A stretch of DNA of 64,000 nucleotides from Halovenus rubra (lineage in GTDB: Archaea > Halobacteriota > Halobacteria > Halobacteriales > Haloarculaceae), in the NCBI RefSeq assembly GCF_026586665.1, contig NZ_JAODIY010000001.1, positions 124,001-188,000 of the forward strand. The letters are read 5' to 3'. Shown in pieces: positions 20,907 through 43,725 of this stretch; within the stretch, counting starts at the first letter, position 1; the number at the start of each line of letters is the position of its first letter. The position numbers and the translations under genes were made by a program. The notes below the pieces were generated by a model. It did not search any database. It was not told the DNA's origin and saw only the letters and a list, made by a program, of their open reading frames with translations.

Positions 20907-21923
20907 ATGTTGGGCCAGCTCAACACAATCTTAGCCGACCTTGGCACCTACGCACACCCTGTCGGCTGGCTTGCACTTGCTGTCTTTCTGATTGGTGTTG
21001 TCGTTGATACGACTGACCGCGAGCACGCACGCCCAGTATTTATTGCTGGCTGGCTCCTGTTCGCACTCTTTTGGGTCCTGCTTATCCAGCCGTTTTTCGT
21101 GGCTGACCAGAGTATTATTCGTGGTGTGGGGGCTGTACTTGCCGCCCCACTCTCGGTGCTTGTCGCGAAAGTCCTCTATGAGGGTCGTGACACGCTGTTT
21201 ACGCTCTCACGAGCGGTCCCAATGATGGGGCTATTTTATGTCCCGTTTTCGTTCTCGCAGACGCTCCGAGAGGAACTAATTCTCCTCGTTACCGGACAGA
21301 CCGCGTGGGTGATGAATCTCATCGGCTACAACCCACCGCTGGTGACTGAACTCTCCGAGGCTGCCCCGGCTGCGCCCGGTGGTGTCGATTACAACCTCGC
21401 CCGTGAAATCGGCGGCAAAGAACTCGCATTCGAAAATACGTTTGTTTTCTTCACTGATGGCGGTGGGACAATCACATACACCATCGTCCTCGCGTGTACC
21501 GGTATCGGGAGCATGGCCGTTATCGGCGGTCTCGTGTTGGCGGTCAAGGCACCGCTACGTCGGAAGGTCAGAGGACTCGCGCTTGCGTTGCCGATTATTT
21601 ATGTGTTGAACATCATCAGGAACGTGTTCATTGGGCTTAGCTACGGACACCAGTACGCCCATTTTTTCCCAGACCCGACGATAACTGTCTTTGCACTGGA
21701 TAACTCCTTACGGGTCTCGTACATCTGGGCCGACCGTATTCTGGCCCAGTCCGGGTCGGTAATTGCGATGGTCATTATTTTCTGGTTAGTCGTGCGCGAA
21801 GTTCCAGAAGTAATGGACCCTGTTGAAGAGGTACTCTACTTGCTCACCGGTGAGGAACTCGACCTGGCAGCAGCACTCAACGTCGACCGTGAGACTGGCG
21901 AGTCAACTGAATCGACGGACTGA
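20907..21923 (+). CDS. artA: Archaeosortase A
   Basis: 338 residues, polytopic membrane protein. The catalytic set of ArtA is visible: Cys197 in LACTGIG, Arg238 in NIIRNVFIG and Arg277 in ADRILA; the spacing Cys to first Arg (41) and first to second Arg (39) fits the family. ArtA processes proteins with a C-terminal PGF tripartite signal and links them to archaeal lipid. Two likely substrates are in this window: the S-layer glycoprotein just upstream and the exonuclease-like protein at 59180. The gene lies 148 bp after csg and is probably transcribed separately, past the T-tract. Confidence 0.9.
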   Translation: MLGQLNTILADLGTYAHPVGWLALAVFLIGVVVDTTDREHARPVFIAGWLLFALFWVLLIQPFFVADQSIIRGVGAVLAAPLSVLVAKVLYEGRDTLFTLSRAVPMMGLFYVPFSFSQTLREELILLVTGQTAWVMNLIGYNPPLVTELSEAAPAAPGGVDYNLAREIGGKELAFENTFVFFTDGGGTITYTIVLACTGIGSMAVIGGLVLAVKAPLRRKVRGLALALPIIYVLNIIRNVFIGLSYGHQYAHFFPDPTITVFALDNSLRVSYIWADRILAQSGSVIAMVIIFWLVVREVPEVMDPVEEVLYLLTGEELDLAAALNVDRETGESTESTD

Positions 21924-27583: not shown

Positions 27584-27730
27584 ATGAACCCGACTGAGGT
27601 GCCACAGTACGGCGAGTCGGTGAACTTCATGCCCTGTCCCGAATGTGGCGAAGGCTCGATGCAGTACGACGAGGACGTTGGTGCTCCAAAATGCAGTGCG
27701 TGTGGTGCAGTTGACGACAGACGAACGTGA
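27584..27730 (+). CDS. Small zinc-ribbon protein
   Basis: 48 residues from the ATG at 27584; the frame is open from 27521, adding a basic 21-residue leader that is less likely. Two Cys pairs (CPEC, CSAC) 18 residues apart form a single zinc ribbon. Such mini-proteins are common in haloarchaea and mostly uncharacterised; roles in RNA or protein binding are plausible. It converges on the next gene with a 9-bp gap. Confidence 0.6.
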   Translation: MNPTEVPQYGESVNFMPCPECGEGSMQYDEDVGAPKCSACGAVDDRRT

Positions 27731-27739
27731 TGGGTGCCC

Positions 27740-28051
27740 TCACTCTGTGTGTGTCTCGTCGAGATGCCGTTCTATCGACGCTGCGTATTCGGCAGCTACT
27801 CCCAACTCGCTTTCGTCGGCTGTTGCAACCGTTTCAGCACGCTCACACCCGTGCAACACCTGCTGCCGGAGGTCACTTTCGGGAAGTTTGTTGTCCGCAA
27901 CTGTTGCAGCACTCGTAATTGCCGCTACGCCTGTCTCCCTGTCGCCACGCTTGAACGCAGCGCTGGACTCCCGACACAGCTGTGACAGGACGGATGCGAT
28001 ATCTTCGGGTACGTTCACGGTAAGTAATGATGAACTTGACCGACAAAACAA
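27740..28051 (-). CDS. Small helical haloarchaeal protein of unknown function
   Basis: 103 residues if started at 28051; a GTG at 28018 would give 92 residues starting just before NVPEDIASVLSQLC and looks more natural. Helical and acidic, no membrane segment, no known motif. It is the last apparently chromosomal gene before the degenerate tRNA-end repeat at 28131, so it marks the left edge of the island. Confidence 0.5.
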   Translation of the reverse strand: MFCRSSSSLLTVNVPEDIASVLSQLCRESSAAFKRGDRETGVAAITSAATVADNKLPESDLRQQVLHGCERAETVATADESELGVAAEYAASIERHLDETHTE

Positions 28052-28130
28052 CTCTGTCGCTGTGCTAGTTCGTTACTTTTTGATATCACTCGACAGCAAA
28101 CACGTTCTTTGGTTTCACTCCCAACAAAAA

Positions 28131-28152
28131 GAGCCGGTGAAGGGCATTCAAG
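28131..28152 (+). repeat. Degenerate attachment-site copy of the tRNA-Thr 3' end
   Basis: GAGCCGGTGAAGGGCATTCA matches the antisense 3' end of the tRNA-Thr gene (44362 onward) at GCCGGTG, then AGGG, TT and AA, about 15 of 21 positions. It is in the same orientation as the exact 12-bp copy at 37738, and an integrase-like start follows at 28191, the same layout as at 37738/37806. Interpreted as the decayed left attachment site of an older island. Confidence 0.5.
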
Positions 28153-28190
28153 TAAAACTTTACAATCTCACGTATATAGTATATACCTGT

Positions 28191-28394
28191 ATGTCCGACC
28201 CACGAAGCGAGATTGACCGCCTCCGCGAGCGCATCCAGGCCGGTGAGCGCGGCGGCAGCGAGGCCGACCGGGAGGTAGTCTGTCCCGCCAGTCGCGGCGT
28301 GACAGACCCCCGAGCGCACGTATACGAGGTGCCCTTCCGCGGATCCAGCAAGTCCGGGTCGTACTCGAAGGTCGCCTTTCGATCAGCGGGATAA
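28191..28394 (+). pseudogene. Truncated tyrosine-integrase N-terminus
   Basis: ATG at 28191, with TTTACAATC about 30 bp upstream. The first 30 residues (MSDPRSEIDRLRERIQAGE, then SEADREVV) read like the N-terminal helix of haloarchaeal XerC/D-like integrases. The following 37 residues do not fit that family and the frame stops at 28394; no catalytic domain is present. It is interpreted as the stump of the integrase that brought in the island. The minus strand over 28320-28400 also reads protein-like (DRKATFEYDPDLLDP) and may be part of whatever replaced the rest. Confidence 0.5.
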
Positions 28395-28448
28395 CACGCC
28401 GGTAAACGGACGGCGCACCGATGGGGGCGCCCGCCCGGCACCCACGGT

Positions 28449-30764
28449 TTACTGCTCGACGCCCTGGATTTCCTTGATCCGTCGAGCGTCGCTGTTCGGA
28501 CCGGGGTACACCCAGCCGGCGCTGGTCTCGCCTGCCGCTTTCTTCTGCTGAACGGTGCCTTTCGGCAGTCCGCCGAGTATCTCGCCGAAGGGCCGGTGGT
28601 CGGGAAACTTGGCGTCGACCGGGAAGTGCTTGGCCCGGTAGGCCGCCTGTTCGGCCTCGGACATCTCGTGGTACCCATCCGCCGCGGGATCGGTGTCGAA
28701 CTCGAGGCGTTCGGCGGTCTTCGTCTCGACGGGAACGCCACCGATCTCGATCGCCGTGTAATCCTTCTTGGCGCCGCCCGGCGACTCGACCGTGTCCGCG
28801 TCAGTACGGATGTTGAGGTACTTGTCCTCCAGGGCGATGCGTTCGTACTCGTAGAGTTCCGACTCCAGGTACCATCGTGAGGTCATGTGGCCCGCGTCGA
28901 GTGGCGGCCGGCGGTGGTGGACGAAGTACCAGTCGTCGCCCTTCTTCGGCGTTGTCGACCGGTCCCAGAAGGAGACGCCGTCGCGGTACGTCTCCGGTTC
29001 CTCCTCGGGATTGACGAGTTGCTCCGGGGACTCGGCCGGGCCGTCGGCGTCGCCGCGAACGACCATCGGATCCAGAAGGAAGGCGAGCGGGTGGGGTTCC
29101 CAGCCGTCGGCCTCCGGGTCGCCAGCCTTGATCTTTGCGAGCATCTCGTCCATGAACTTGGTCTGGAGATAGCCACGCGAATACCGCCGATCGTCCGGCT
29201 TCGTCGGGATTTCCGGCAGTGGCGACGGACCACCCGACGGCTCCTCCCCGTGGATCCGTTCCTCGATGGCACGCTCCGCGTTGTACGCGGCGTTGTCCGG
29301 CTGCTGGCCGAAGTACTCGAGGACCGACTGGGCGGCGGTCTGCATCGCCTCCTCGACGGCCTCCCTCGTGGGTGTAAAGCCCAGCATGGACAGGTCGCCG
29401 GTCGGAAGGTCGATGACCTGAGTTCTCTCGATCGGTGTGTAGATCTGGTTTTCGGTCGTCCGGGCGAACAGCGATCCTGACACCGCGCCGACGAAGTCGC
29501 CGAGGTCGCCGATCTCGCCGGCCGGTTCATCGAGGTTGAGCCCCAGCACCGACGGGCTCGCTGCCCGGTCCGGCGGCGTGTAGGCGTGCAGCGGGAAGTT
29601 GTTGATAAGTCCCCCGTCGACCCAGGTACCGGCGTGGGGGCCGTCCGCGACGGTCGTCGGCCGGTAGACGAACGGAATCGCCATCGACAGGCGGATCGCG
29701 TCCGCGACGCCGATGTCGGGCGTCTCGCCGGTGGCGAAGCTGTCGGCAGTCCCCGACGAGAGGTTCGCACCGACGACCGAGAGATCGATCGGCGAGCCGG
29801 CGGCGAGGTCCCGGAAGGTGACGGTGTCACCGGGCGGAACGCCGGCCGACCGCAGGCCGGCGGTGAGCGCCGCGTCGAGGTACTGCCGGGCGAAGGCACC
29901 CGAGAACACGCCGTCGTGGAACAGCAGGTTCGCGACGTACATCGGGAAGTGGCCGGTCATGAACACCTGGCGGATCGTCTCGGCCGGCAGGCCCGTGTCG
30001 AACTTCCACCGGAGGAGCGCACCGAGCCACCAGGCCGGGCTGTCGAGCATCTCCCCCGAGAAGTAGGCGTCACTGACCTGCGAGGCGTCCTGGACCCCCT
30101 CGATGATCTCGTCGACGGTCTCGCCGGTCTGTGCGGTGATGTAGTCGACGACGGACGTCCGGTACTCCTGGAGTTCGGCCGGCGCTGCGTCGGTGCCCAT
30201 GGCCGTCACCAGCGCACCGCGTTCGGCGGTCGGTCGCGTTACCTCGTCGGTTCCCGAGAGCGTCGGGCTGTCGAGCGTCGACAGGTCCGACCGGTCGAAA
30301 AACCGGGTGATCTCCTCGTCGTCGGTGAGGAGATCGTAGGCCTCGCCCAGGCCGACGTTGCCGGCGAGCAGTCCCGCGGTGATGGCACCCGCGGAGGCAC
30401 CGGCGACGCCGTCGATCCGGTCAGGATCGAGGAAGTAGTCGTCCGGCGCGTCCGCGTCGTCGCCGTCCCGCGCGGGGTTGTGTAGGAAGCCGAGCTCGCC
30501 GAGCGCCGCCAGGGCGCCGAGGAAGGCAAAGGCCTTCGCGCCGCCACCGGAGAACACCAGGTAGCGCACCTGGGACGGCATCGGCGCCGTCCTGACCGGC
30601 CGCTCGGCCTCCGCGAAGCTGCCGCCGTCGATGTCGTCCGGATTGACGCCGGCGCCGAAGGGGCCCTCGTTGCCGTCGGTGGTCTCGGCCTGGGGCGGAT
30701 CCTCGAGGAATAGCTCGAGCTGTTCGGGCTCGTCGTCCTCCCCGGACCCGTCGCCGTTAGCCAT
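28449..30764 (-). CDS. Patatin-like phospholipase with large C-terminal extension
   Basis: 771 residues. After an acidic leader of about 65 residues the patatin domain has the oxyanion loop FSGGGAKAFAFLGAL, the nucleophile elbow GASAG (Ser near residue 150) and the catalytic Asp in VDGGLINNFPL near 395. Patatins hydrolyse acyl chains from lipids. Residues after about 500 form a unique tail with many charged residues and Trp/Tyr (for example GDDWYFVHHRRPP) that I do not recognise. No signal peptide or membrane helix, so it is probably cytoplasmic. Its ATG lies 8 bp inside the preceding patatin gene. High-GC codon use sets it apart from chromosomal neighbours. Confidence 0.85.
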   Translation of the reverse strand: MANGDGSGEDDEPEQLELFLEDPPQAETTDGNEGPFGAGVNPDDIDGGSFAEAERPVRTAPMPSQVRYLVFSGGGAKAFAFLGALAALGELGFLHNPARDGDDADAPDDYFLDPDRIDGVAGASAGAITAGLLAGNVGLGEAYDLLTDDEEITRFFDRSDLSTLDSPTLSGTDEVTRPTAERGALVTAMGTDAAPAELQEYRTSVVDYITAQTGETVDEIIEGVQDASQVSDAYFSGEMLDSPAWWLGALLRWKFDTGLPAETIRQVFMTGHFPMYVANLLFHDGVFSGAFARQYLDAALTAGLRSAGVPPGDTVTFRDLAAGSPIDLSVVGANLSSGTADSFATGETPDIGVADAIRLSMAIPFVYRPTTVADGPHAGTWVDGGLINNFPLHAYTPPDRAASPSVLGLNLDEPAGEIGDLGDFVGAVSGSLFARTTENQIYTPIERTQVIDLPTGDLSMLGFTPTREAVEEAMQTAAQSVLEYFGQQPDNAAYNAERAIEERIHGEEPSGGPSPLPEIPTKPDDRRYSRGYLQTKFMDEMLAKIKAGDPEADGWEPHPLAFLLDPMVVRGDADGPAESPEQLVNPEEEPETYRDGVSFWDRSTTPKKGDDWYFVHHRRPPLDAGHMTSRWYLESELYEYERIALEDKYLNIRTDADTVESPGGAKKDYTAIEIGGVPVETKTAERLEFDTDPAADGYHEMSEAEQAAYRAKHFPVDAKFPDHRPFGEILGGLPKGTVQQKKAAGETSAGWVYPGPNSDARRIKEIQGVEQ

Positions 30765-32259
30765 CCGCGGTCACCCCGCGCTCGCCGCTCGTAGCCTTGC
30801 CGCCACTGCCGCGTTGGAGGAACTCGTTCACGGTCGTGCTGGCCCGTTGCTCGGCACGCCGCTTTCCGAAGTACTCGTAGACCGCCTGGGCACTGGCGAC
30901 CAGCGCCGGCCGGATGCGACTCGTGTTCTTCGGCACCGAGAGATATGGCAGGTCACCGACCGGCAGCCCGATCGTCTGGAGATGGTCGCGCGGCCCCCGG
31001 ATCCGCCCGGTGGTGCTGACCTCGACGAACCGCCCGGCGACGGCGCGAGCGAGGTCGACGAAGGAGTCGACCGAGCGCCCCCGCGGCGGCCCGACGTCGA
31101 AGCCGAGTACCGAGCCGGGCAATCCATCACCGCCGTCGAAGGCGTGGAGTGGGTAGGCGTTGGCGATGCTGCCGTCGACCCAGATCCCCTCGTGACTGCC
31201 GTCCTCGACGAACGTCGGCTTTAGCAACAACGGGAACGCCATCGTCATTCGGAGCGCGTCGGCGACGGGGACGTCGGGCGTCAGATCGGCGGAGAAGATT
31301 TCCCCGCTCCGCGTCGCGACGTTGGTCCCGGTCAGGGCGAGCGGCGTGCGAAAGCCCTTGCCGTTGGAGTGGGTGCCGTGCACGTAGCCGGCGAACTGCG
31401 AGAAGGTGAGGTTCCCGAGGTCTGCGATGGCGGTGTAGGTGGCCGTGGTGCCGTCGCCCGGCCCGCGTTCGGAGGCGACCTGGTGCTCGCGTTCGGCCGC
31501 CCGACGGGCCGCCCGCTCATTCGCCTCACCGCGGCGGCCGACCTCGTGCAGCGGCGACTCGGGTGAGCCGAAGCTATGGCGAAGTTCGTGGCCGGAGAAC
31601 AATCCGTAGTCGGTCACGAGGTTACGGACGTATGTCGCCATGTCACCGCTCCCGAGCACTCGGTCGATCAACACCTGGGGCACGCCGTGGCCGACGGTGT
31701 CGTCGACCACCCCGAGGAAGCCCGCGGCGACCGTCCCGCGAATGTTGAGGTCCTCCGTCATCACCGGATACCCGACATCAGCGACCTCCCCCGCGAGTCG
31801 GCCCGTCATCGACGAGACGATCGGATCCCACAGCGCCTCGTGGGGGGCGGTGAGATCCTCCGTCTGAATGCCCTCGAAGGTGGGACGGTGGCGGCGTTCC
31901 CACGGCTCCTTGGCGAGGACGACCGGGAGCAGATCCTGCTGGTCCTCGCCACCAGGGACCGCGATATTGTACGCCGTCTTCACGCCGACGCCCATCGCGA
32001 GCAAGGTCGCCACGAAGCCACCGGTCGAGGAGCCGGCGATCGCCTTGGTCTTTGCCGGATCGAGGTAGTGGTCGACCGCAGGCTGGTAGGGCGAGGCGGG
32101 TGGTGCCTCGACGCGCTTCAGGTATCCCAGGTCGCCGAGGGCCGCGAGCGCGCCGAAGTGGGCAACGGCGCGGGCCCCACCGCCACCGAGGACAAGGTAC
32201 TCGACGTCCTCCGGCGACTCGATGGGAACCGCGTCGGTACTCGGTCGCCCGGCGGGCAT
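30757..32259 (-). CDS. Second patatin-like phospholipase
   Basis: 500 residues. YLVLGGGGARAVAHFGAL is the oxyanion loop, AIAGSSTGGFVATLL contains the GxSxG nucleophile (Ser near residue 77), and WVDGSIANAYPLHAF carries the catalytic Asp with DGS in place of the usual DGG. It shares overall layout with the next gene, so the two are probably an old duplication that has diverged strongly. Its ATG overlaps the stop of the giant gene by one base (TAATG), so translation is coupled. No export signal. Activity on archaeal ether lipids is not obvious; bacterial or viral ester lipids, or protein acyl groups, are possible targets. Confidence 0.85.
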   Translation of the reverse strand: MPAGRPSTDAVPIESPEDVEYLVLGGGGARAVAHFGALAALGDLGYLKRVEAPPASPYQPAVDHYLDPAKTKAIAGSSTGGFVATLLAMGVGVKTAYNIAVPGGEDQQDLLPVVLAKEPWERRHRPTFEGIQTEDLTAPHEALWDPIVSSMTGRLAGEVADVGYPVMTEDLNIRGTVAAGFLGVVDDTVGHGVPQVLIDRVLGSGDMATYVRNLVTDYGLFSGHELRHSFGSPESPLHEVGRRGEANERAARRAAEREHQVASERGPGDGTTATYTAIADLGNLTFSQFAGYVHGTHSNGKGFRTPLALTGTNVATRSGEIFSADLTPDVPVADALRMTMAFPLLLKPTFVEDGSHEGIWVDGSIANAYPLHAFDGGDGLPGSVLGFDVGPPRGRSVDSFVDLARAVAGRFVEVSTTGRIRGPRDHLQTIGLPVGDLPYLSVPKNTSRIRPALVASAQAVYEYFGKRRAEQRASTTVNEFLQRGSGGKATSGERGVTADG

Positions 32260-35200
32260 TACTCGTCCTCCGGCGGGGCGGACTCGTCCGCCGACCGGGG
32301 TGGGGCCGACGAGTCCCAGCCACCGTCGACGGCTGGCTCGGCGGCACCCGAACCCAGGGCGCCCTCGGTGAGCATCGTCGCCGCGGCGGTCGTCGTGTCG
32401 TACAGTTCGTTGACGGGCGTGATCATGTCGGGCAGTGCGTCCGAGGCCTGGAGTTTGATCAGCGACGTCGGGACGGTGTTGAACCAGTGCTCGCCGGAGT
32501 ACTCCGAGCCCTCGGCCGCGCCCTGTTGCTGGCGGAGTTCCGAGACGATGTCGACGTATCGGGGATCGTCGATTTCCTCGATGGTTCCCTCCTTGAGGAA
32601 CGGGATGCCCGTCTGCATGAACCGCATGACGTTGGGCTCGAACCCGGGCCGCACCGGGACGACGAACCGCGCAGCGCCGGCGGTCAGGAACGACTCGAAC
32701 TTCGGATCCGAGTCGTCACGCGTGAGCCGCGTCGTCCAGGACTCCCGGTCCGCCCAGTAGTAGGGGTAGAAGACGTAGGTCCCCTGTTGCCACTCGAAGG
32801 ACTGCTCGAAGAACTGCAGGTCGTCTTTCATTCCGGGGATCGCGGACTCCTCGATCCCGGGGAAGGATAGTGAGTCGTTGCCGTTCTCGCCGGGCATGGT
32901 CACGGCGTCGAAGTCGAGTTCGAAGCGCCGCATCAGCTCGATCGACGCTCGCTTGAGCTCCTTCCGTTCGGTCTCGCGGTTCTGCTTGGGGTTCTCGCCT
33001 TCGATGTTCACGCCGGCGCCAACCTTCGCCGCCTCGACTTCGCTCTCGTACTCGTCGCGACGGCGACGGTAGGCCGCCATGATCTTCCGGTGGACCTCGG
33101 CTTTCCACTCGCGCAGTGCGTCGTCGGTGCGTTCGAGCGTCGCCGTCGCGACGACGTTGTAGTCGGTCGTGTTGCGGGCCGACAGCGTGACAGGGACGCG
33201 GTCGTACTCGTCGCTGTTCAGGTAGAAATACTCCGTTTCGGCGGGGTCTGCCTTGTCGTCGCCGGCGTCGGCGGAGGAATGGACGTTCTGGATCCGGTGG
33301 CTCGGGCCCGAGCCGGGGTCGTCCGTACCGACGTTGACGCGGATGCCAGCACCCAAGCTGTGGTTCTTCCGGTGCATGTAGCCGGAGAAGACGGCGACGG
33401 TCCCCACGCTGTAGCCGTCTGGGACGTCGATGAACTTGGTGTCGTAGGATGGCGCCTCGTCGTTGCCGCTGCTGACGCCCTCCCCACCTTTCATCTTGAT
33501 CGTCTTCTTGCGACGGTGGGCCGGTGGAGCCGGCACGTCCTCGGCCTCGTAGTGGGTGGCGTACCACTGGTAGTTCGACGGAGTGATGTCGTCGTACGAG
33601 AGGCGCTTTTCGTACACCGGCGCCCCCTGCTCGCGCTCGGCACCGGTAGTGACGTCACCGCCGAAGTCGACCGCCTTCGGTTCGATGGGCTTCTCGGCGG
33701 TCTTCTCCTTTGGCTTGGCGCCCTGGGCGTACCGGTACCCAGCGGCGGGATCGGGCACGAGGAACTCGACCATCAGCCGCGGTCGGTCGAACTCGTGGAC
33801 GTCCATCCGGTAGGTCTTCTCCAGCCACCGGTAGATGCCGGTGATGTGGTCGTCGCCGTCGTTCTCGAACGCGTGACGGTTGCGCTCGATGATCTCCTCG
33901 CGGATGCGTTTCGTCGTCTCGGTCGTCACCCGCTCCTCGACGCGACGGGTGGCCTGCCGGGTGATCTCCTGGGCCGTGGAGACGGCCGTCCGTTTGGACT
34001 TCTGCTTGGAATGCTGCCGGGAGTACCCGAAGTTCGTATCGACGGAGACGGGGCCGTACTTCGCCGACACGTTGACGCCGGCCTCGACGCCCCACTGATC
34101 GTTGATCACCGTCTCCGACTCGCGTTTGATCTCGTTGCGCTGGGTCGTCTGGAGGTCCTGCTTCTCGCTTTTGATCGTCTTCTCCTTCCGGCGAGTGGTC
34201 TCCTCGGTCACCTCCGACTCCCGGTGGACCCGCTCGCGGGTCTCGCTCTCCATGACGTTCTCGACGTGGGCGATCTCGCCGGCCTCGTAGCGCGGGCCGA
34301 CCTGCTTGACCACGCGCAGATCGCCGAAGCCGAGGACCGTGACGCCCTCGGCACGGTAGGACTCTGCATCGTCCTCCTCGGCCGACTCGTCGCTCCCCCA
34401 CCAGGCGCCGCCAACGCTACCGGACAGGGGCTGTGACGATCCGGAGGACCGACCCTCGCCGATCAGCATCGGTCCGTCCTCGGTCGCGACCAGCCGTTCG
34501 TACGCGCCGACCGTCTCGTCCAGGAGTCGCTCGTTGATGCGGCGGGCTTCCTCGCTGACGCGCTCGGTCGCGTCGTCGATCGACCCGTCGCCGGGTTCGA
34601 TCCCGAGGCTCGACAGCGTCGAGCGAGCGCGATCGGACAGGTCGGCCATCCGATCCTCGTCGAGCGGCCGACCGCCGCCGGCCCGTCGCTCCGCGAGGCG
34701 GTCGACAAGTTGCTCGATCGAGTCGAAAGCGTCCGCAAGCTGGGCGTTCGTCGCGTCGTCGACCGCCCCGCCAGCGGCCCGCTCGGCGCGACGGATCGCC
34801 GCCGGGACGTCGGTTTCGTCGGCCGCCGACCGCTCGCGCGCCGGCGCCTCGTCCGCAAACTGTCTGCCCTCGCCGTCGGTGAGCGGGGCCTCCAGTGCTC
34901 CGGACGGCGGTGCCGTGGCCGCCGTCCGCAGTTCGTCGGCGGCAGCCTCCAAATCGTGTAATCGGTCTGCGAGCGTCGACCCGTCGGCACGGCGGCCGGA
35001 CGAACCGCCAGCACTCGGCGGTGACTCGACGGGGAGCGCCGAGAGCGCGGGAACGGCCTCGGGGAGCGCGACCTGTCGGTCCAGCACCGCCGGCGCGTCG
35101 ACTGTCTCGCCGTCGGCCGCCCTGCGGATGGCGTCGACGAGCCGCGTTCCGTCCCGAAGCGAGGCGCGGACCGACTCGTCGACCCCGATCGGGTGGAGCG

Positions 35201-36359
35201 ACGCCGCCGTCAGGCTGTCGAGCACCTGGCCAGCGGTCTCCTCGAGCGTGTCGTCGTCGACCAGGGCCTCGGGCGAGGACCCGAGGGCTTCCTCGACGAT
35301 GGCGCCGAAGTCGGCCGCGGCCTCGTCCGCCGTCTCGTCGGCGTCGAGTTCCGCGAGGGCGTCATGCAGTGGCGTCAGGTCGAGCGGCGCCGCCGACAGC
35401 GTTTCGAGGAACGCGTCACCGTCCTTGAACGCCTGCAGCTGTTCGACCACGGCCCCGCGGGCCCCCTCCTCACCGGCGGCCTCCGTCAGCGACGAGACGA
35501 GCCCGGTCGAATACCCCGGATTGACGCGTGCAAAGGCGCCCGGATCCGACTTCTCGGGCGGCCTGACGGTCATAAACTGGAAGAGGTCGTCGGCATCGGC
35601 GGTTGGCGTGGCCTCCTCGTCCGCGGGTTCGCTCGACTCGGCGGCCGCCCCGTCGGGCGGGGTCGACTCGCCGTTCGACGGGTTCGATCGGTTCGATTCG
35701 GCGTCGGTGTCGTCCGATCGATTGGATTCGGCCTCGGAGGCGTCCGATGGTGTGGCGTCCTCCGCGGACTCCTCTGGCTGGTCCGTCCCGCCGTCGGTCA
35801 TGAGGTCGGGTTCGATCGACCGGTCGCCGATGCCGAGGGCCTCGGGCGGGACCGCGACGTCACGAACGGCGATTGGCGTCGTCGCGTCGATCCGGTCGGT
35901 GGTCGTCCGCGTCGCCTCGTCGACGATGCTGACCCGGACCGCCGGCGCCTCGACCGAGCCGAGGCTCTCCGGCTCGTACGACAGGACGAACTCGCCGTGC
36001 TCGCCGGTCGTGTCCATCGCGATTGGCTGGCTGGCCGGCACCGCTTCGCCATCGTAGACCGCAGCGTCGTAGAGGCGGACGGTCACGCCCTCGCGCAACT
36101 GGTCTGCCTGGCGGACCTGGCCGACGATCAGGTGGCGACCGCCCGGTTCCGCCGAGTGGAGGGCGATCGAACTGCCCGGGGACTGCCGGGCGGCGACTGC
36201 CGACCAGTCGAGCGATCGATCGGCGTCGGCCGTCCGGGCGAACCCAGTCGCGCTCGCACGGTCGGCAGTCGCCGAATCGAGCTCGTTCGCGAGCCACTGT
36301 CGCAGTGCTTCGCTATCTGTACCCCACTGCCGCACTCGAAGTAGCTGGTGTTCTGGCAT
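32259..36359 (-). CDS. Giant multidomain coiled-coil protein of a patatin operon
   Basis: 1366 residues from the ATG at 36359. Visible regions: an N-terminal segment; a beta-sandwich resembling carboxypeptidase-regulatory domains (about 75-150, GRHLIVGQVRQADQLREGV); an acidic Ser/Asp/Glu linker (about 200-275); a helical part (300-650); a strongly charged helical coiled-coil region (about 700-830, with ERVHRESEVTEETTRRKEK); GIYRWLEKTYRMDVHEF (about 838); a beta-rich part (930-1070); and a conserved-looking C-terminus with REWKAEVHRKIMAAY and FEWQQGTYVFYPYYWAD (1085-1205). The C-terminal pattern recalls large uncharacterised bacterial proteins, from memory and unchecked. No signal peptide. First gene of the operon; presumably scaffold or sensor for the two lipases. 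Confidence 0.75.
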   Translation of the reverse strand: MPEHQLLRVRQWGTDSEALRQWLANELDSATADRASATGFARTADADRSLDWSAVAARQSPGSSIALHSAEPGGRHLIVGQVRQADQLREGVTVRLYDAAVYDGEAVPASQPIAMDTTGEHGEFVLSYEPESLGSVEAPAVRVSIVDEATRTTTDRIDATTPIAVRDVAVPPEALGIGDRSIEPDLMTDGGTDQPEESAEDATPSDASEAESNRSDDTDAESNRSNPSNGESTPPDGAAAESSEPADEEATPTADADDLFQFMTVRPPEKSDPGAFARVNPGYSTGLVSSLTEAAGEEGARGAVVEQLQAFKDGDAFLETLSAAPLDLTPLHDALAELDADETADEAAADFGAIVEEALGSSPEALVDDDTLEETAGQVLDSLTAASLHPIGVDESVRASLRDGTRLVDAIRRAADGETVDAPAVLDRQVALPEAVPALSALPVESPPSAGGSSGRRADGSTLADRLHDLEAAADELRTAATAPPSGALEAPLTDGEGRQFADEAPARERSAADETDVPAAIRRAERAAGGAVDDATNAQLADAFDSIEQLVDRLAERRAGGGRPLDEDRMADLSDRARSTLSSLGIEPGDGSIDDATERVSEEARRINERLLDETVGAYERLVATEDGPMLIGEGRSSGSSQPLSGSVGGAWWGSDESAEEDDAESYRAEGVTVLGFGDLRVVKQVGPRYEAGEIAHVENVMESETRERVHRESEVTEETTRRKEKTIKSEKQDLQTTQRNEIKRESETVINDQWGVEAGVNVSAKYGPVSVDTNFGYSRQHSKQKSKRTAVSTAQEITRQATRRVEERVTTETTKRIREEIIERNRHAFENDGDDHITGIYRWLEKTYRMDVHEFDRPRLMVEFLVPDPAAGYRYAQGAKPKEKTAEKPIEPKAVDFGGDVTTGAEREQGAPVYEKRLSYDDITPSNYQWYATHYEAEDVPAPPAHRRKKTIKMKGGEGVSSGNDEAPSYDTKFIDVPDGYSVGTVAVFSGYMHRKNHSLGAGIRVNVGTDDPGSGPSHRIQNVHSSADAGDDKADPAETEYFYLNSDEYDRVPVTLSARNTTDYNVVATATLERTDDALREWKAEVHRKIMAAYRRRRDEYESEVEAAKVGAGVNIEGENPKQNRETERKELKRASIELMRRFELDFDAVTMPGENGNDSLSFPGIEESAIPGMKDDLQFFEQSFEWQQGTYVFYPYYWADRESWTTRLTRDDSDPKFESFLTAGAARFVVPVRPGFEPNVMRFMQTGIPFLKEGTIEEIDDPRYVDIVSELRQQQGAAEGSEYSGEHWFNTVPTSLIKLQASDALPDMITPVNELYDTTTAAATMLTEGALGSGAAEPAVDGGWDSSAPPRSADESAPPEDE

Positions 36360-37003
36360 GGGAATCACGTGGTCTGACGGATAGTCAAGACCTATAGGGC
36401 CATGATAACACATCACAATAAGAGGTATTAAATTTTGTCATTGGAATATAATTGTATATAATATTATCAGGCGGGCAGGTCGTTGATCTGTTTCGATATG
36501 AGGCGCTGTGGACGGGCATCGGTCCCCAATTGGTGTTGCCGTTCGCCATTACCATTCGCGATTCAGCAGACTTGACCATGCGACCGACCCGAAACGGTTT
36601 GTCTGTCTCGGGTCGGCAACCACTGCCCTTCGCGACCGGGGGTGTCAGTTTCCTGAAAACGGTCGTGACTGGCGCGTTGGACCGGTCTGAGTGGATTTCG
36701 AGCGCGCCGGTCGCACAAGTGACAGTGGAGAGATTCGAACCATGGAGAGATAGTCCGGGCGTGTGGCGCGTCACGCTGGAAGAAGTTCCTGCTCGCCTCA
36801 CCGCGTTCGGCTCCGCGGGCTGCGTCGTCCGTACCCTCGCTCGCTTCGCCAATGCATCGACCTACTCACGGATGGTGTACTTGACCGTCTCTATGCCCTC
36901 CCCGCAATGTAACGGCACGTTGAGGTACACGGAGTCTGAGAGCTGGTGATTTCCTGAAAATCGATGTGCCCCTCGGAGATGATGTTCCCACCGGGGCGCA
37001 GAC
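36360..37003. other. Intergenic region upstream of the giant gene
   Basis: About 640 bp. The 36395-36475 part is very AT-rich and should hold the operon promoter (on the minus strand, near 36385-36400 for a short leader, or in the run around 36450-36470). Open frames exist on both strands between 36385 and 36950 but neither shows a family motif, and they overlap in antisense, so none is called. A perfect 9-bp inverted repeat (CCGACCCGA at 36584, TCGGGTCGG at 36609) lies in the middle. Confidence 0.4.
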
Positions 37004-37680
37004 CTAAGCGAGTAGCTCCGAAGGGCCCGCTGGTCGCGGCAGTTCGCTCAGTCGAGCGCGCATAGCTAACCGGTGCCTGAACTGCGTCGTGACCAGCGAG
37101 ATGCACGCGTACCCGCATTCGTGGGCCGTGATTGCGTCGGCGATGCCCTCGGTGATGAGGACGGGCTCGCCCGACTCGACGGTCTCAAGGCCGTAGATGG
37201 GCTCGTCGATGGCGACGTATTCCTTCGTGTGGGCGAGCTTGGCGTACTTCCCGCTCATGAAGTCGGCGGGGTGGCCGTCGTACCCGGCCGCGCCGCCGCC
37301 CTCGTTCCCGGTCAACCGCGAGATAGCGTACACCGGCCGACCGTCCATGTCGAAGTATGGGAAGACATAGCGCCCCTGCCAGAGCGGCGTGAGGTCCTCG
37401 GTGAACAGGCCGGTCCCGAGTATCGCGTCTCGGTCGTAGCCCTCCCCCATCAGGTAGTCGAGGAGCGCCGTCTCGTCGGCCGGGGCCCAGCCGAGCCGCT
37501 TCGCGTCGACAGTCTCGGCGTCCTACCCGCGCACGCGCTCGAAGTATTCCGGGATGTCGTGGGGATAGACCTGCTCTTTCGCGACTCCGTGGACCAGGCA
37601 GCGGGGAGGCTCCTCGCGACCGGAATCGAGGTACGGTCCGGTCACGCCGAACTCCCCCGGAACAACCTTACGGGCGACTG
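37004..37680 (-). pseudogene. Broken TOPRIM primase-like gene
   Basis: Reading leftward from about 37680: FGVTGPYLDSGREEPPRC, then DIPEYFERVRG, a TAG at 37524-37522, then in the same frame DAETVDAKRLGWAPADE and on through RYVFPYFDMDGRPVYAISRL and PVLITEGIADAITAHECG, the TOPRIM-type Glu loop of DnaG-like plasmid/virus primases. The frame ends at 37004, far short of a complete TOPRIM domain (no DxD segment), and the N-terminus is lost near the att repeat. One nonsense codon plus truncation at both ends makes it a pseudogene; 37004-37450 remains open after an ATG. Confidence 0.65.
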
Positions 37681-37737
37681 ATCAGTTACCGAACACCCAG
37701 GAACCCTTATACGGTAGGATTGTAAAGGAAATAGTGT

Positions 37738-37749
37738 AAGCCGGTGGAG
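37738..37749 (+). repeat. Attachment site copy (distal end of inner element)
   Basis: AAGCCGGTGGAG, identical over 12 bp and in the same orientation as 44362-44373, where it forms the 3' end (acceptor and start of the T stem, antisense) of the tRNA-Thr gene. The integrase gene begins 57 bp further on. Confidence 0.75.
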
Positions 37750-37805
37750 TGCTTACCGAACAAGGGTTCAAAACTTATTTGGACGTGGCGCTATAATAAC
37801 CAGTC

Positions 37806-39011
37806 ATGCCGACAGAGGACTTTCAGAAACGGATTGAGCAAACCACTGAGAACATCGAAACATCGGACGTAATCAGTGAGGCGAACAAAGAGCTATTGCG
37901 GGACTACAAACGGGATCAAATGCTGAATGGGCTGAGTGAGGCGACTCTACTCAAGAATCTCTCGCGGCTGAAGGTGCTATCCGAAAACTCAGACAAGCCG
38001 TTCAATGAGATGGACAAGTCTGACGTTAAGGATCTGCTTGAGTGGGTACACTCTCAAGACTATACAGACGAAACGATTGATACGTACAAGACGGTCATGC
38101 GTGGGTTTTGGACGTGGTTGAATGACGGGGAGACGCCGGAGGAAATTGACTGGATTAAACTGTCCAACTCAAACGGTAACGATACTCTCCCGAAGGATCT
38201 ACTATCTAAAGAGGATATAGAGGCTCAAGTAGAGGCGGCAAAGAATCCGCGGGACAGGGCTTTCATTTACACTCTCTATGAGACGGGCGCTCGTATCGGT
38301 GAGTTAATTGATTTGACGGTTGGGGATATCGAAGATAGAAAGCATGGCAAGAAGGTAGTGATAGACGGTAAGACTGGTTCTCGACGGCTACCTTTGGTTG
38401 AGTCAGTCCCATACATCAACCAGTGGCTAAACGAACATCCAAACCCCGAGAAAGAAGCCCCTTTATGGTGCAAAATCCAGCAGGGCGGGCCAGACGACAA
38501 ACTGGGCTATCGGTATATTCGTGAGAAAGTTCTCAAGAAGAACATGGACAGGGCGGATATCGATAAGCCGTCAAACCCTCACCATTACCGACACTCTCGG
38601 GCCTCTGAGCTAGCTACTGAAATGACCGAAGCGCAACTCTGTGAATGGTTCGGGTGGGTCCAAGGGTCGGACGTACCCCAGCGTTATGTCCACCTGTCCG
38701 GTCGTGATATCGACAATACGTATGACCAAATGCATGGCCTCTACGAACCGGATGAAAAGGAACAACAGCCGGACGTGATAGAGTGTCCGCGGTGTGAAGA
38801 ATTGAATCAACCAGAGGCGACGTTTTGTATGCGCTGTGGATTCGGCTTAGATCAAGAGCGGGCGGACGAATTCGAGGCAGAGACGGACGAAGATATCAAG
38901 CAAGACTATCAGGATATTGAACCGGGGGCTGACTTAGCAGACAAGCTCGAAACATTGGATAGTCTCATGGACGATCCTGACATTAAGTCGTTTCTTGAAC
39001 AAAAGCAATAG
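37806..39011 (+). CDS. Tyrosine integrase with C-terminal zinc ribbon
   Basis: 401 residues. An N-terminal SAM-like core-binding domain (about 20-115) precedes the catalytic domain with Arg163 (ETGARIGEL), HHYRHSRA near 260 (the His-x-x-Arg pair) and the nucleophile Tyr294 (QRYVHLSG). A zinc ribbon CPRC-x14-CMRC follows at about 327-346, then an acidic tail. It would integrate and excise the element at the tRNA-Thr site 57 bp to its left. A TATA-like ACTTATTT lies about 30 bp upstream. The active-site set is complete, so it is probably functional. Confidence 0.92.
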   Translation: MPTEDFQKRIEQTTENIETSDVISEANKELLRDYKRDQMLNGLSEATLLKNLSRLKVLSENSDKPFNEMDKSDVKDLLEWVHSQDYTDETIDTYKTVMRGFWTWLNDGETPEEIDWIKLSNSNGNDTLPKDLLSKEDIEAQVEAAKNPRDRAFIYTLYETGARIGELIDLTVGDIEDRKHGKKVVIDGKTGSRRLPLVESVPYINQWLNEHPNPEKEAPLWCKIQQGGPDDKLGYRYIREKVLKKNMDRADIDKPSNPHHYRHSRASELATEMTEAQLCEWFGWVQGSDVPQRYVHLSGRDIDNTYDQMHGLYEPDEKEQQPDVIECPRCEELNQPEATFCMRCGFGLDQERADEFEAETDEDIKQDYQDIEPGADLADKLETLDSLMDDPDIKSFLEQKQ

Positions 39012-39038
39012 TGAGCAACGTTAGTAGATAATCAACCG

Positions 39039-39737
39039 CTATTCTTCATCTCGCTCCTGTAGCCTCATTTGCTTCTCGCGGGCCTTATTCGCTCTCGTTT
39101 CAGCCGCCTCATCCTGTTCTTCAAGGATTTCATCATAGTGGTCCATAAGCTCATGTTGCATCTCTCTCAATTCGGTGGGAGATACCGTTGGAGTTCGATG
39201 GAGTAATCTCACAATCGCTTGTGCTTCACCGTCCGTCATGTCGGACATTTTCCCACGTTTGAATTTCCTAATCGCTTTTTTATATTCGACCTCCTCAAGA
39301 TAGTCCACCTCAAGATCAACATCAGCAACATAATACCAGTCCGATTCGGATAACTCTCGTTCTGCTTTATTCACACCCTCAAGCAGAACCTTTTCGAGAC
39401 CACTTTGGAGGCCATAAGGACTATCGGTGTATAACATAGCGACAAGGCCAGCTAGTCCCTCAAGTATGGCTTTGTCGTTAATTGAGTCACCCATTATCTC
39501 CTCCCGTCCTTCTTGATCGTGCTTGTCCCAGTGTTCGTGGAGTAGGGCAAAGTCAAGCAGAGTGTTATATACTCGTTCTTTAATCGCTGTCTTGCGTTCT
39601 GATTGGGTTGATTCGGCAAGTCCGCTTCCGTCCCCTTCCAGAAATTCACGGTGTGATTCAGTGAGCATACCGTTTCGCGGACTATCGTCTTTGGAGCGGT
39701 AGTTGACCTTATACGGCAAGTCGTCTCTGTTCGTCAT
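39039..39737 (-). CDS. Unknown element-encoded helical protein
   Basis: 232 residues, mostly charged helices, no signal or membrane segment. The N-terminus (YKVNYRSKDDSPRNGML) and the region around EEVEYKKAIRKFKRGKMSD are not assigned to any family I recognise. It ends 28 bp from the integrase stop (convergent) and its start is divergent from the AbrB-like operon, with 56 bp between. That position next to integrase and a small DNA-binding protein suggests a role in element maintenance or control. Function unknown. Confidence 0.65.
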   Translation of the reverse strand: MTNRDDLPYKVNYRSKDDSPRNGMLTESHREFLEGDGSGLAESTQSERKTAIKERVYNTLLDFALLHEHWDKHDQEGREEIMGDSINDKAILEGLAGLVAMLYTDSPYGLQSGLEKVLLEGVNKAERELSESDWYYVADVDLEVDYLEEVEYKKAIRKFKRGKMSDMTDGEAQAIVRLLHRTPTVSPTELREMQHELMDHYDEILEEQDEAAETRANKAREKQMRLQERDEE

Positions 39738-39793
39738 TATTACGAACTATCACCGCAATTTGACTTAATACTTTTCCTCACAATCGTACAGAT

Positions 39794-39937
39794 ATGCCGA
39801 CCACAAAACGATGTCCGGCAAAGGTTCTCGATCAGGGGCGGGTAACGATAGACGCCTCTATCCGGCGTGATCTTGAGCTTGAGCAGGGCGACTTTGTCGT
39901 ACTTCAAATTGAACCGCTTGAGGGGGATTCTGAGTGA
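39794..39937 (+). CDS. Small AbrB/SpoVT-like protein
   Basis: 47 residues. CPAKVLDQGRVTIDASIRRD followed by LELEQGDFVVLQIEP matches the swapped-hairpin AbrB fold (x-V-x-x-x-G-R-V-T-I/L-P-x-x-x-R...L-x-x-G-D). Such proteins bind DNA as dimers and act as antitoxins or transition-state regulators. It heads a chain of overlapping genes leading to the Rep gene and may control it. Its TGA overlaps the GTG of the next gene (GTGA). Confidence 0.65.
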   Translation: MPTTKRCPAKVLDQGRVTIDASIRRDLELEQGDFVVLQIEPLEGDSE

Positions 39938-40065
39938 GACCTGCCAATCTCTCCAGCGATACGATAGAGCGGCTTGAGGACAGCCGTGAGGACTTAGAGG
40001 TGATAGCAGAGTCGGACTTGCGGTGTTCAAAATACGCCGAGTCACTGCTTGAAGCTCTTGAGTAG
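39934..40065 (+). CDS. 43-residue element protein of unknown function
   Basis: Starts at a GTG that overlaps the stop of the AbrB-like gene by three bases, so it is likely translated by coupling. The sequence is acidic and helical (SDTIERLEDSREDLEVIAES), ending in LLEALE. No recognised family. Support is the tight overlap, the absence of stops and the shared operon. Confidence 0.5.
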   Translation: MRPANLSSDTIERLEDSREDLEVIAESDLRCSKYAESLLEALE

Positions 40066-40070
40066 ATTCT

Positions 40071-40235
40071 ATGAGTGGTAAAGGGCAGAGAGGCGGGATT
40101 GGTGCAAACCTCTCTGAAAGGCGGGCGTATCCGTTGGGATTCGGGATACAGATGATTGTTTCTCGACCTAGTGACTTGATTCTGTCGCAGGATACGCCCA
40201 TAGTTCGGTTTCTCGTGGGCTATGAGTCAAAGTAA
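40071..40235 (+). CDS. 54-residue element protein of unknown function
   Basis: ATG five bases after the preceding stop, ending 14 bp inside the Rep gene, continuing the compact operon. The sequence (MSGKGQRGGIGANLSERRAY) is basic at the N-terminus and mildly hydrophobic at the C-terminus. Not recognised. It could also be a non-coding stretch carrying the Rep ribosome site, so confidence is modest. Confidence 0.35.
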   Translation: MSGKGQRGGIGANLSERRAYPLGFGIQMIVSRPSDLILSQDTPIVRFLVGYESK

Positions 40236-41871
40236 AGACGAACTATCGGCAAACGAATTCGGTTCGGACGTACCGACAGGCGAAAAGGCAGAAAAACAGG
40301 TCCAAGAGGGTATCCAAGAGTTTCGGGACAAGTATGGACTCCCAGAGACGGACGTAGATACCACTCAGGACGGACTCACGGACGACTCAAGAGATCCTTT
40401 GTCGTCCCAAGGGGATACGCTTAGAGAGGCGACAGCGGACTCTCAAGCGGACTCTACAAACGGGGAAAGGGATACATCCACTCAATCGGCTACCTCTCTC
40501 GCGGGACTACGTCGGTCGGATCATGGACTGGATTCTATCCCATGTCAAAACGGTAGTGGTGGCTCTACTGGATTCACCTGTCCATGGGACGGTGAGCAAT
40601 ATGCGTCGGATAAGACGGATTTCATGCGTACAGTGGTTGAAAACCAGAAACAGGGATATCCGACGCGACTCTCTGAGGCGGTAAAGTCCGTTTACGGTGA
40701 GGATTACACCAATACAGAGTATCAAAGGCTACGTCGGTTGGCAAAACGGTGTAACTGGTTCAAATGCGACAGTAGAGGCGGTTTTGTCCAAATCGAGCCA
40801 AGGTGGATCTGCTTCAAGGCGGACTCTCTCTTGAGACAGCAGTATGAATATTCTCTAAAAGCAAGACGTGGCGGTGATGGACAGTCCACCGCCGGCGACA
40901 GTGAGACAGCCGCCGGCGACGGACAGTCACTCACCCCAAAAGAGAGGGTCCAACGGTTTTGTGAATCGTACAAGACGGTTCAAGCGGATAGTGTAAAGCG
41001 CGACTTGTTCAGAGAGTTCGTAACGTGGCGAGCGTCAATCACCGGGACTTACACAATCATGCAACAGTACCGGGACCGTCCGAACGTGGACAGTGAGTAT
41101 CTACTGATTGAGCAGGAGTCGCGGTTCAAGGACAAGCCTGAGGCGAGAAAGTCACACAACCGACTCACGACAGCGTTAGACAAGGCGGCAGAGAAAGAAA
41201 GCCAAGCGGTAATGGTGACACTCACGCCAGATCCAAAGCGGTTTGAGAGTCACACAGAGATTCTTGAGGCGGTCCAAGACGGCGTCGGTAATTTCATTGA
41301 CTGCTTGGGATATCGGTTAGGTGGACGGCCAGAGTATATCAAGTCCTTAGAGTTTCAACACAAAGGACTACCACACTACCATATCGTTCTGTTCGGGGTG
41401 GACTACGTCAAAGACGGCGAGAGTGAAACGGGCAACTCTACAATCAGTGAGCAAGAGGTACGGGATTATTGGAACCAAAAGAAGGATATCGGCCAACAGG
41501 TGTACGTGCAATCAGTCACTCGACGGGACGGATCGTGGCTACTGCATGATGATAGCGACGGCAAGAGAACACTCTCCTACTATCTGAGTGAGGCAACTCG
41601 CGGCCTCTATGAGTTCGTAGAGGCGTCTGAAAGCGAATTGCGGGACATGCTAGAGTCGGGTGAAACGCGCCTCTGGCGACAAGTCCTGTATTGGGCCTCT
41701 GAAAAGCAATACGTGAGCTGTAGCAACGGTCTCAAAGAATCGAGTGATAGCGACAAGTCCACGGACATCAAGCAGTATGACACTCTTGGGGCGGCAAAGT
41801 TCGGCCAGATACCGTCTCACATTAGAGATGACGCGATCATAGCCAACGGGACAAGGACAGGGCCAGAGTAG
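40222..41871 (+). CDS. HUH-endonuclease replication initiator (Rep)
   Basis: 549 residues. The rolling-circle Rep motifs are present: motif I MVTLTPDP (about 331-338), motif II GLPHYHIVLFG with the metal-binding His-x-His (about 381-391) and motif III SYYLSEATRGLYE (about 451-463) with the likely nucleophile Tyr. A long polar N-terminus (1-120) and a probable DNA-binding part (120-230, with several Cys/Trp) precede it. The family nicks the double-strand origin of small haloarchaeal plasmids and pleolipoviruses. It is the last gene of the AbrB-led operon. An origin is expected nearby; the repeats at 41897 and 43333-43651 are candidates. Confidence 0.85.
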   Translation: MSQSKDELSANEFGSDVPTGEKAEKQVQEGIQEFRDKYGLPETDVDTTQDGLTDDSRDPLSSQGDTLREATADSQADSTNGERDTSTQSATSLAGLRRSDHGLDSIPCQNGSGGSTGFTCPWDGEQYASDKTDFMRTVVENQKQGYPTRLSEAVKSVYGEDYTNTEYQRLRRLAKRCNWFKCDSRGGFVQIEPRWICFKADSLLRQQYEYSLKARRGGDGQSTAGDSETAAGDGQSLTPKERVQRFCESYKTVQADSVKRDLFREFVTWRASITGTYTIMQQYRDRPNVDSEYLLIEQESRFKDKPEARKSHNRLTTALDKAAEKESQAVMVTLTPDPKRFESHTEILEAVQDGVGNFIDCLGYRLGGRPEYIKSLEFQHKGLPHYHIVLFGVDYVKDGESETGNSTISEQEVRDYWNQKKDIGQQVYVQSVTRRDGSWLLHDDSDGKRTLSYYLSEATRGLYEFVEASESELRDMLESGETRLWRQVLYWASEKQYVSCSNGLKESSDSDKSTDIKQYDTLGAAKFGQIPSHIRDDAIIANGTRTGPE

Positions 41872-41896
41872 GACTCGAAAGGTGGGTAGTGGCGAC

Positions 41897-41918
41897 TCTC
41901 GAAAACAAACCCCATGAA
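41897..41918 (+). repeat. Isolated copy of the iteron-like repeat
   Basis: TCTCGAAAACAAACCCCATG lies 26 bp after the Rep stop. It matches the consensus of the array at 43333-43427 (CTCGAAAACAAnnCCATGG) better than most copies of the array itself, so the same protein may bind on both sides of the lipoprotein gene. Confidence 0.5.
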
Positions 41919-42107
41919 AGAACCCCAATCTCTGTTAGGTGATTCGTTTGATTTTGTTCCGTAGAGACTCTTAGGATAGAAATATCCGTGATATAGGAAA
42001 CAATTGGACATGGCTTATCCCCGAAACAAGGCCATGAATGGACGAACTCCCGTGAAACTCAGGAACGATAAGATTCTATAACCAATTGAGAATCCGAGTA
42101 GTAGTTC

Positions 42108-43241
42108 CTACTCCTTTCTTTTGTACCTACTCGTGAACGCAACCATTGTCATGCCAGCAAGTAGAAGTATAGGCACATTTGAGCTTTCATTACTCTCGTT
42201 TGCCCATACTGTATCGTAGAACTCAATTGAAGCCCCCCTTACGTTTACTCCACTTCGATTACAACATTCTTGCCTATTCTCATTCCACTCTGAGAGGTTT
42301 TCTTGAAGCTCTAAGACCCTTTCCTCACTTGGTCCTATAGTAATTTCTTTGGCCTCTGTCGTGTGACCACCATCTTGAAAGTCTAAAGCGGCGTACACTG
42401 TTGTATGTACCTCCCCGGATGAATTTGTCCATACCTTCGCAGTTACTTGGTAGGTGTCATTATTTATCCAGCCTCTATCTTGAACTGAGCCACTGACTGT
42501 TGGATCTGGGCGTGGAGTAGGTGTCGGTGTCGGCGTCGGTGTTGGCGTGGGCGTCGGTGTTGGCGTGGGCGTCGGTGTTGGCGTGGGCGTCGGTGTTGGC
42601 GTGGGCGTCGGTGTTGGGGTTGGTGTAGCAGTTGGCGTCGGTGTCGGCGTCGGTGTTGGCGTGGGCGTCGGTGTTGGCGTGGGCGTCGGTGTTGGGGTTG
42701 GTGTAGCAGTTGGCGTCGGTGTCGGCGTCGGTGTCGGCGTCGGTGTTGGCGTGGGCGTCGGTGTCGGCGTCGGTGTCGGCGTCGGTGTTGGCGTGGGCGT
42801 CGGTGTCGGCGTCGGTGTCGGCGTCGGTGTTGGCGTGGGCGTCGGTGTTGGCGTGGGCGTCGGTGTTGGCGTGGGCGTCGGTGTTGGGGTTGGTGTAGCA
42901 GTTGGCGTCGGTGTCGGCGTCGGTGTCGGCGTGGGAGAAGGTGTAGGTGTATGCGTAGGTGAGAGTGTCGGCGTAGGAGTGGTTGTTGGAGATGGTGTCT
43001 GTGCAGGTGTCTGTGTTGGGGTTAACATAGTAGTCTGAGTTGGAGAAACGGTTTCATTGGGGGAGGACACTGGCGTCTGTGTAGAAGATGTTTCTGTAAC
43101 GGTAGGAGAACTAGGGTCTTGTGTCGGAGTCATAGACGGGCTCACTTCGGTTGTAGGTGAGTCCGAATTAATAGAGAAGGAACAGCCAGCCAATAGAATG
43201 AGAAAAGCTAACACGATGGTCGCTAATTGCGTTCGTTGCAT
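42108..43241 (-). CDS. Lipoprotein with Thr-Pro repeat stalk and C-terminal membrane anchor
   Basis: 377 residues. Signal peptide with lipobox (LILLAGC, Cys20), a Ser/Thr-rich segment to residue 80, about 160 residues of nearly pure Thr-Pro dipeptides (with rare Thr-Ala breaks), then a compact domain of roughly 100 residues ([20 protein letters not shown], beta-rich, with a vicinal Cys pair in ECCNRSG) and a final hydrophobic helix with KRKE. The domain looks like an Ig-like/FxLYD surface fold. The stalk would lift it above the S-layer. It lies between two sets of iteron-like repeats; a receptor, adhesin or exclusion role is guesswork. Confidence 0.75.
42513..42950. repeat. Thr-Pro minisatellite (hexamer-based, 18-bp higher unit)
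   Basis: About 430 bp of GTCGGT/GTTGGC/GTGGGC hexamers, often as an 18-bp unit (GGCGTCGGTGTTGGCGTG), with three spaced copies of the variant GTTGGGGTTGGTGTAGCAG. All unit lengths are multiples of three, so copy-number change keeps the reading frame. The plus strand is G-rich and the minus strand codes Thr-Pro. Confidence 0.85.
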
Positions 43242-43332
43242 ATCTCTCCCAGGACACTATAGGGACATTATAGTTAGGATTCATAATTGATGGAGGTCGA
43301 CAGCCTTCTGTAGCTAACGGCAGAAAATTATA

Positions 43333-43651: not shown

Positions 43652-43725
43652 AGGTAGAATAGGACAGGGTTAGAATCAGAGGGCAAGAGTATCTTTAACA
43701 GAGTTTGGAGTCAAATGAGAATACT

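Follow-up and report, generated by a model that had tools for sequence, protein, structure and literature searches.

In a 64,000-nucleotide stretch of the Halovenus rubra genome (assembly GCF_026586665.1, contig NZ_JAODIY010000001.1, positions 124,001 to 188,000; hereafter the window), three overlapping genes encode a 1366-residue protein, which we call the giant, and two patatin-like phospholipases. We favor, at a probability of roughly 0.55, the view that this operon was acquired horizontally and acts outward as a polymorphic-toxin-like module, its giant serving to carry or translocate an exchangeable effector. The parts of the operon lie in the window as follows.

32259-36359, minus strand: the giant, 1366 residues by open reading frame (ORF) translation; candidate conserved carrier or translocator.
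30757-32259, minus strand: patatin-1, 500 residues, PF01734; diverged sister of patatin-2 and putative effector.
28449-30764, minus strand: patatin-2 with its Ntox5 tail, 771 residues; putative effector.
29583-30560, minus strand: patatin domain of patatin-2, residues 69-394, PF01734 at E 2.5e-26.
28704-28973, minus strand: Ntox5 domain of patatin-2, residues 598-687, PF15543, a polymorphic-toxin family.

By ORF coordinates, the giant and patatin-1 overlap by 1 bp (32259) and the two patatins by 8 bp (30757-30764), at the place and on the strand that a first-pass annotation of this DNA had given; an in-frame GTG at 36416 provides an alternative start, from which the giant would gain 19 residues. 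By domain and motif, the two smaller proteins are patatin-like phospholipases. A Pfam scan finds PF01734 in them at E 1.3e-21 and 2.5e-26, and each retains the GxSxG and DG[GS] motifs of the Ser-Asp dyad (GSSTG/DGS in patatin-1, GASAG/DGG in patatin-2), which the annotation had also read correctly. The two share 30% identity, and its description of them as strongly diverged is therefore apt. In the patatin tree, they are sisters (support 95/87) on long branches, placed near other haloarchaeal proteins, and patatin-2 is similar in sequence to the effectors ExoU and VipD. Overlooked in the annotation was the C-terminal Ntox5 domain of patatin-2, which gives this multidomain protein the terminal toxin-family domain characteristic of polymorphic toxins. 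The match is borderline, above threshold (E 1.6e-5, 25.3 bits against a cut-off of 25.0); in the genome search, where it scored 28 bits, it was the sole match among 292 haloarchaeal genomes, and no plasmid relatives of the tail were found. Ntox5 was originally described from PVC-type polymorphic toxins (PMC3482391).

What follows the giant in other genomes bears most directly on our reading. We surveyed 84 loci, with genes called mechanically and the window's own genome excluded, and counted as coupled any same-strand gene of at least 100 residues that starts -60 to +200 bp from the stop of the giant. Such a gene lies downstream in 64 of the 84 loci, and one lies at the corresponding upstream position in 28. 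The downstream genes split into many unrelated families, and the content of this slot was recognized in 42 loci, several groups being scanned with Pfam through one representative each. A patatin fills it in 14, among them both other haloarchaea found (Natronorubrum and Natrarchaeobius), and the recurrence of giant and patatin that the annotation had named as evidence for a system does exist. A pre-toxin-TG group occupies seven (PF14449 is reached by five of nine aligned members), a Het-C/phospholipase-C-like group five, an M23 peptidase four, and a toxin-tail cassette group three; lysine oxidase, arginine deiminase, PhoD-like, and phospholipase D proteins account for two each, and an amidase for one. 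EndoU and SUKH families, the latter of the immunity type, also occur among the downstream genes of relatives.

Orphan toxin-tail cassettes and immunity genes, a further mark of polymorphic toxin systems, are likewise present in relatives, though not in the window operon. In one locus (L094), two orphan cassettes match the pre-toxin part of the full toxin over the first 42-78 residues (59-69% identity) and then diverge, with small genes lying between them; in another (L011), one orphan cassette shares 99 residues with the full toxin at 89% identity before diverging. The arrays of orphan tails and small genes downstream of the giant extend over 11631-17802 in L094, a contig from a viral collection that also carries a prophage tail-sheath gene at 1-1179, and over 12215-16497 in L011. 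Elsewhere, the genes that come after the giant encode a LodA-type lysine oxidase and an FAD enzyme (L032, 9813-12753; L044, 9810-12751); LodA is known in other settings as an antimicrobial protein. A partner family with conserved FFSHA and WGCAFP motifs and no Pfam match, possibly a new hydrolase, appears in four loci (L033, 10060-11154; L042, 9856-10968; L051, 9868-10965; L008, 11795-12880).

The constant element of these loci is a part of the giant.

32406-34346, minus strand: conserved core of the giant, residues 672-1318 (about 640 residues), from core alignments.

A search of a species-representative genome collection with the core alignment recovered at least 494 relatives, which span many bacterial phyla and, among the archaea, Halobacteria, Methanoperedens, and Methanosaeta, and tblastn against plasmids found residues ~676-1311 to be common to Natronorubrum, rhizobia, actinobacteria, Cupriavidus, and Chryseobacterium. 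Searched as a single sequence, the giant had no significant match in Pfam, NCBIfam, PADLOC, or PHROGs, PDB sequences matched it at chance level only, phage records searched with it gave none, and nine bacterial giants had no significant match in Pfam or NCBIfam. A contig scan with the full giant also returned no relatives, because its peptide patterns had been chosen from one sequence and are not conserved; the core alignment worked. Among the 292 sampled haloarchaeal genomes, the giant was found in Halovenus rubra only, a very patchy distribution that fits horizontal spread. In two Legionella loci (L058 and L066), the giant is split into two overlapping genes of about 350 and 642 residues, and a gene of the pre-toxin cluster stands upstream on the opposite strand. 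No description of the giant family was found in the open-access papers searched, a scope that leaves aside most subscription literature and preprints.

Acquisition from outside is also indicated by where the operon sits. The first-pass annotation had placed it in a tRNA-anchored island of differing base composition, and both points are borne out.

28132-28144, plus strand: left attachment (att)-like site AGCCGGTGAAGGG, one mismatch to the 3' end of tRNA-Thr.
37739-37751, plus strand: middle att-like site AGCCGGTGGAGTG, a 13-mer match.
44363-44437, minus strand: tRNA-Thr(CGT), whose 3' end (44363-44375) is the right att site.
37004-37450, minus strand: DNA primase fragment, with GC content at third codon positions (GC3) of 0.87, as in the operon.
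37806-39011, plus strand: integrase of the neighboring unit, phrog_1 at E 2e-26.

With at most one mismatch allowed, the window contains three copies of the 13-mer from the 3' end of the tRNA (28132, 37739, and 44363) against 0.13 expected; no exact long att repeat of the tRNA was found in the search, only this 13-mer with one mismatch. Before the left site stands AAAAAGAGCCGGTG, which the empty site of a congener (L109) also has. Two congeneric genomes have only 30-37 bp between tRNA-Thr and the left flank (window ~27.73 kb), and the island DNA (28132-44362) is hence absent from both. Insertion at a tRNA, direct att repeats, and an empty site in relatives together mark an integrative element. 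GC3 is 0.86-0.88 in the operon, 0.59-0.68 in the flanking genes, and 0.47-0.57 in the integrase unit. The att-like site at 37739, which the annotation had missed and which gives the operon its own att-bounded segment, would divide the island into two units, 28132-37738 with the operon and the primase fragment and 37739-44362 with the integrase. No integrase lies in the operon unit, which may be mobilized by that of its neighbor, and the primase fragment of equal GC3 suggests that the operon was brought in by a GC-rich haloarchaeon's virus or plasmid.

The window holds several other features around the operon. The integrase unit, in tandem with the operon unit, includes a gene (40222-41871) that matches an uncharacterized phage family and, at 42108-43241 on the minus strand, a lipobox-like secreted protein whose linker, a Thr-Pro repeat, is very long. 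The 403 bp that separate the left att-like site from the chromosomal flank (27729-28131) are absent from the two congeners and are unexplained by the two-unit scheme; an ORF of 95-103 residues within them (27740-28051, minus strand) was considered as an immunity gene and rejected, being located beyond the att site and without relatives on plasmids. Farther away, 17528-21923 encodes a large S-layer-like surface protein and, after it, a multi-pass membrane protein that resembles an archaeosortase by eye.

Structure prediction gives some indication of what the giant might do. An AlphaFold2 model built from 57 giants is of moderate confidence (predicted local distance difference test, pLDDT, 69.5), and a second model, of residues 655-960, is lower still (pLDDT 66.3, predicted TM-score 0.27); in it, a short hairpin accompanies long beta strands with helices at their flanks.

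33129-33521, minus strand: predicted jelly-roll of the giant, similar to lectins and carbohydrate-binding modules, residues 947-1077, from structure comparison of the model.
34023-34088, minus strand: conserved amphipathic beta-hairpin of the giant with helices on either side, residues 758-779.

The modeled jelly-roll is nearest to BcsB carbohydrate-binding domains and TNF-like lectins (Z about 7-8, best 8.2), a common arrangement. For residues 655-960, the Foldseek matches listed are mostly pore-forming toxins (lysenin, aerolysin, epsilon toxin, CDTb, iota Ib, and protective antigen), none of them significant, and extended hairpins may account for the resemblance of the model to them. The whole giant had no PDB match in Foldseek at E 1e-3, and the one match from the viral library, at E 8.5e-4, was dismissed (TM-score 0.08 on the model, root-mean-square deviation near 30). 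Sturdier than the fold matches is the alternation of hydrophobic and polar residues at 758-779, which is kept across the 57 giants; it is the pattern of a membrane-spanning or stacked beta-hairpin and, as judged from sequence, hints at a pore.

The action of such a module can be pictured from these parts. The giant would be the constant carrier that binds and translocates the effector. Its jelly-roll would bind the target surface, and the long beta/helix module with the amphipathic hairpin would oligomerize, insert into the membrane, and pass the effector, as in two-component toxins. Patatins hydrolyze ester-linked acyl chains, and archaeal membranes consist of isoprenoid ether lipids, so that bacteria or eukaryotes are the likely targets. 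By this lipid chemistry, the delivered patatins would hydrolyze the ester-linked lipids of a bacterial or eukaryotic neighbor, and the producer would be spared by its own ether-lipid membrane and thus need no immunity gene. A bolder extension, that the giants form an undescribed toxin-delivery class of bacteria and archaea in which a self-assembling, pore-forming carrier delivers the enzyme of the next gene with no contractile machine, we regard as tentative and rather doubtful.

Several observations weigh against the module as we read it. The models of the giant have the limited confidence given above, and the pore-former matches (Foldseek E of at least 0.014, best Z 3.9) were obtained on the one of pLDDT 66. 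No docking domain common to the effectors was detected, their families staying separate at E 1e-6. The three operon proteins have no Pfam or NCBIfam match to a trafficking domain or signal peptide, and no same-strand gene that could serve for immunity lies downstream between 28449 and the att-like site at 28132. No secretion system was recognized, and the phage-type sheath PF04984 is absent from the Halovenus rubra genome, in a search that did not extend to other sheath families. The 84 loci are mostly the best-scoring ones, which biases the frequencies; in half of them the genes after the giant have no recognized function, and in a few the slot holds ordinary enzymes (polyphosphate kinase, thiolase).

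The resemblance to described systems is accordingly partial. Like polymorphic toxin systems (PMC3482391), these loci have variable toxin domains at a fixed position, cassettes with immunity genes in several relatives, and Ntox5, pre-toxin-TG, EndoU, and SUKH families; in contrast, the constant part here is a separate giant without a known trafficking domain. Because the window operon lacks both an immunity gene and a trafficking domain, we place it outside the classic type, as a variant of polymorphic-toxin-like systems. ExoU, VipD, and VpdC are also of the patatin family by sequence, with Ser-Asp dyad motifs, but here there are a giant partner and an Ntox5 tail, and a type III or IV secretion context is not seen. 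Two-component pore-forming toxins (protective antigen, CDTb, and iota Ib) similarly have a separate putative translocator and enzyme genes as well as long beta-hairpins, and the modeled giant has weak, non-significant fold matches to their pore states; however, no sequence similarity was found, effector identity varies widely here, and the giant has no visible signal peptide and is present in both archaea and bacteria. VARTIG modules (PMC8416519), which were themselves compared with polymorphic toxin systems, share the large upstream protein and variable downstream genes, but the VARTIG protein has Ig domains and the module was described from Thermococcales only. The haloarchaeal contractile toxin systems (PMC11566945) offer a parallel in cell-cell antagonism by haloarchaea with variable toxins, but the three operon proteins have no match to the PVC metallopeptidase domain, and the genome has no PF04984 sheath.

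The first-pass annotation had seen in the operon a possible uncharacterized conflict system and had pointed to patatins as effectors of antiphage systems, such as CapV in CBASS. Part of this is supported: the operon is of the conflict type, lies on a mobile island, and combines a giant of no known enzymatic family with lipase effectors. What is not supported is the patatin-specific antiviral version. The annotation had itself held that giants found mainly without patatins would speak against it, and 70 of the 84 relatives have none; formally, then, the patatin-specific version is refuted by the annotation's own test, and a patatin is not supported as the essential partner. The broader reading as a conflict system can be kept, since toxins and lytic enzymes make up many of the patatin replacements.

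In its antiviral form, this reading would have the giant sense infection and turn the patatins on the cell's own membrane in abortive infection, as CapV does in CBASS. Patatin, phospholipase D, and nuclease-type effectors do also serve defense systems, the island is mobile, and no export signal is seen by eye in the N-termini of the three proteins, as the annotation had also reported. But PADLOC gave no significant match for the three proteins and a single one, a subtilase, for 71 downstream neighbors; the cyclic-nucleotide synthase of CBASS, which the annotation had likewise not seen here, has no match among the operon proteins; M23 peptidases, an amidase, lysine oxidases, and pre-toxin-TG toxins with cassettes and SUKH-type immunity genes are implausible as self-acting agents; and archaeal ether lipids are not substrates of patatins. 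An intracellular antiviral role thus appears unlikely. Similarly improbable is a peaceful scaffold, in which the giant would display various hydrolases or oxidases on the cell surface, or gather them in an assembly, to serve nutrition or envelope upkeep: PhoD phosphatase, amine oxidase, and polyphosphate kinase among the downstream genes and the lectin-like jelly-roll would suit it, whereas toxin-tail cassettes, pre-toxin-TG, Ntox5, EndoU, and SUKH families and the occurrence in 1 of 292 haloarchaeal genomes would not. That the giant is an adaptor or spike-loaded effector of a contractile injection system encoded elsewhere (PVC-type, extracellular, or an archaeal type VI secretion system) we consider very unlikely, for although Ntox5 is known from PVC-type toxins (PMC3482391), haloarchaeal contractile systems kill neighbors (PMC11566945), and some relatives adjoin prophage tail-sheath genes (as in L094), the PF04984 sheath is missing here and from 7 of 12 genomes reached through giant-carrying loci, a comparison that did not cover type VI sheaths of other Pfam families.

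In general, then, a slot for swappable toxins and lytic enzymes follows the members of a protein family that none of the searched family libraries contains and that has at least 494 relatives across bacteria and archaea. If the giant of the polymorphic-toxin-like module is indeed a carrier, it would represent a further route of toxin delivery and a handle for finding new toxins through the gene that follows it, and in haloarchaea it would be a means of attack distinct from the contractile systems already known. Moreover, the reasoning from ether lipids yields a directly testable prediction of its target range.
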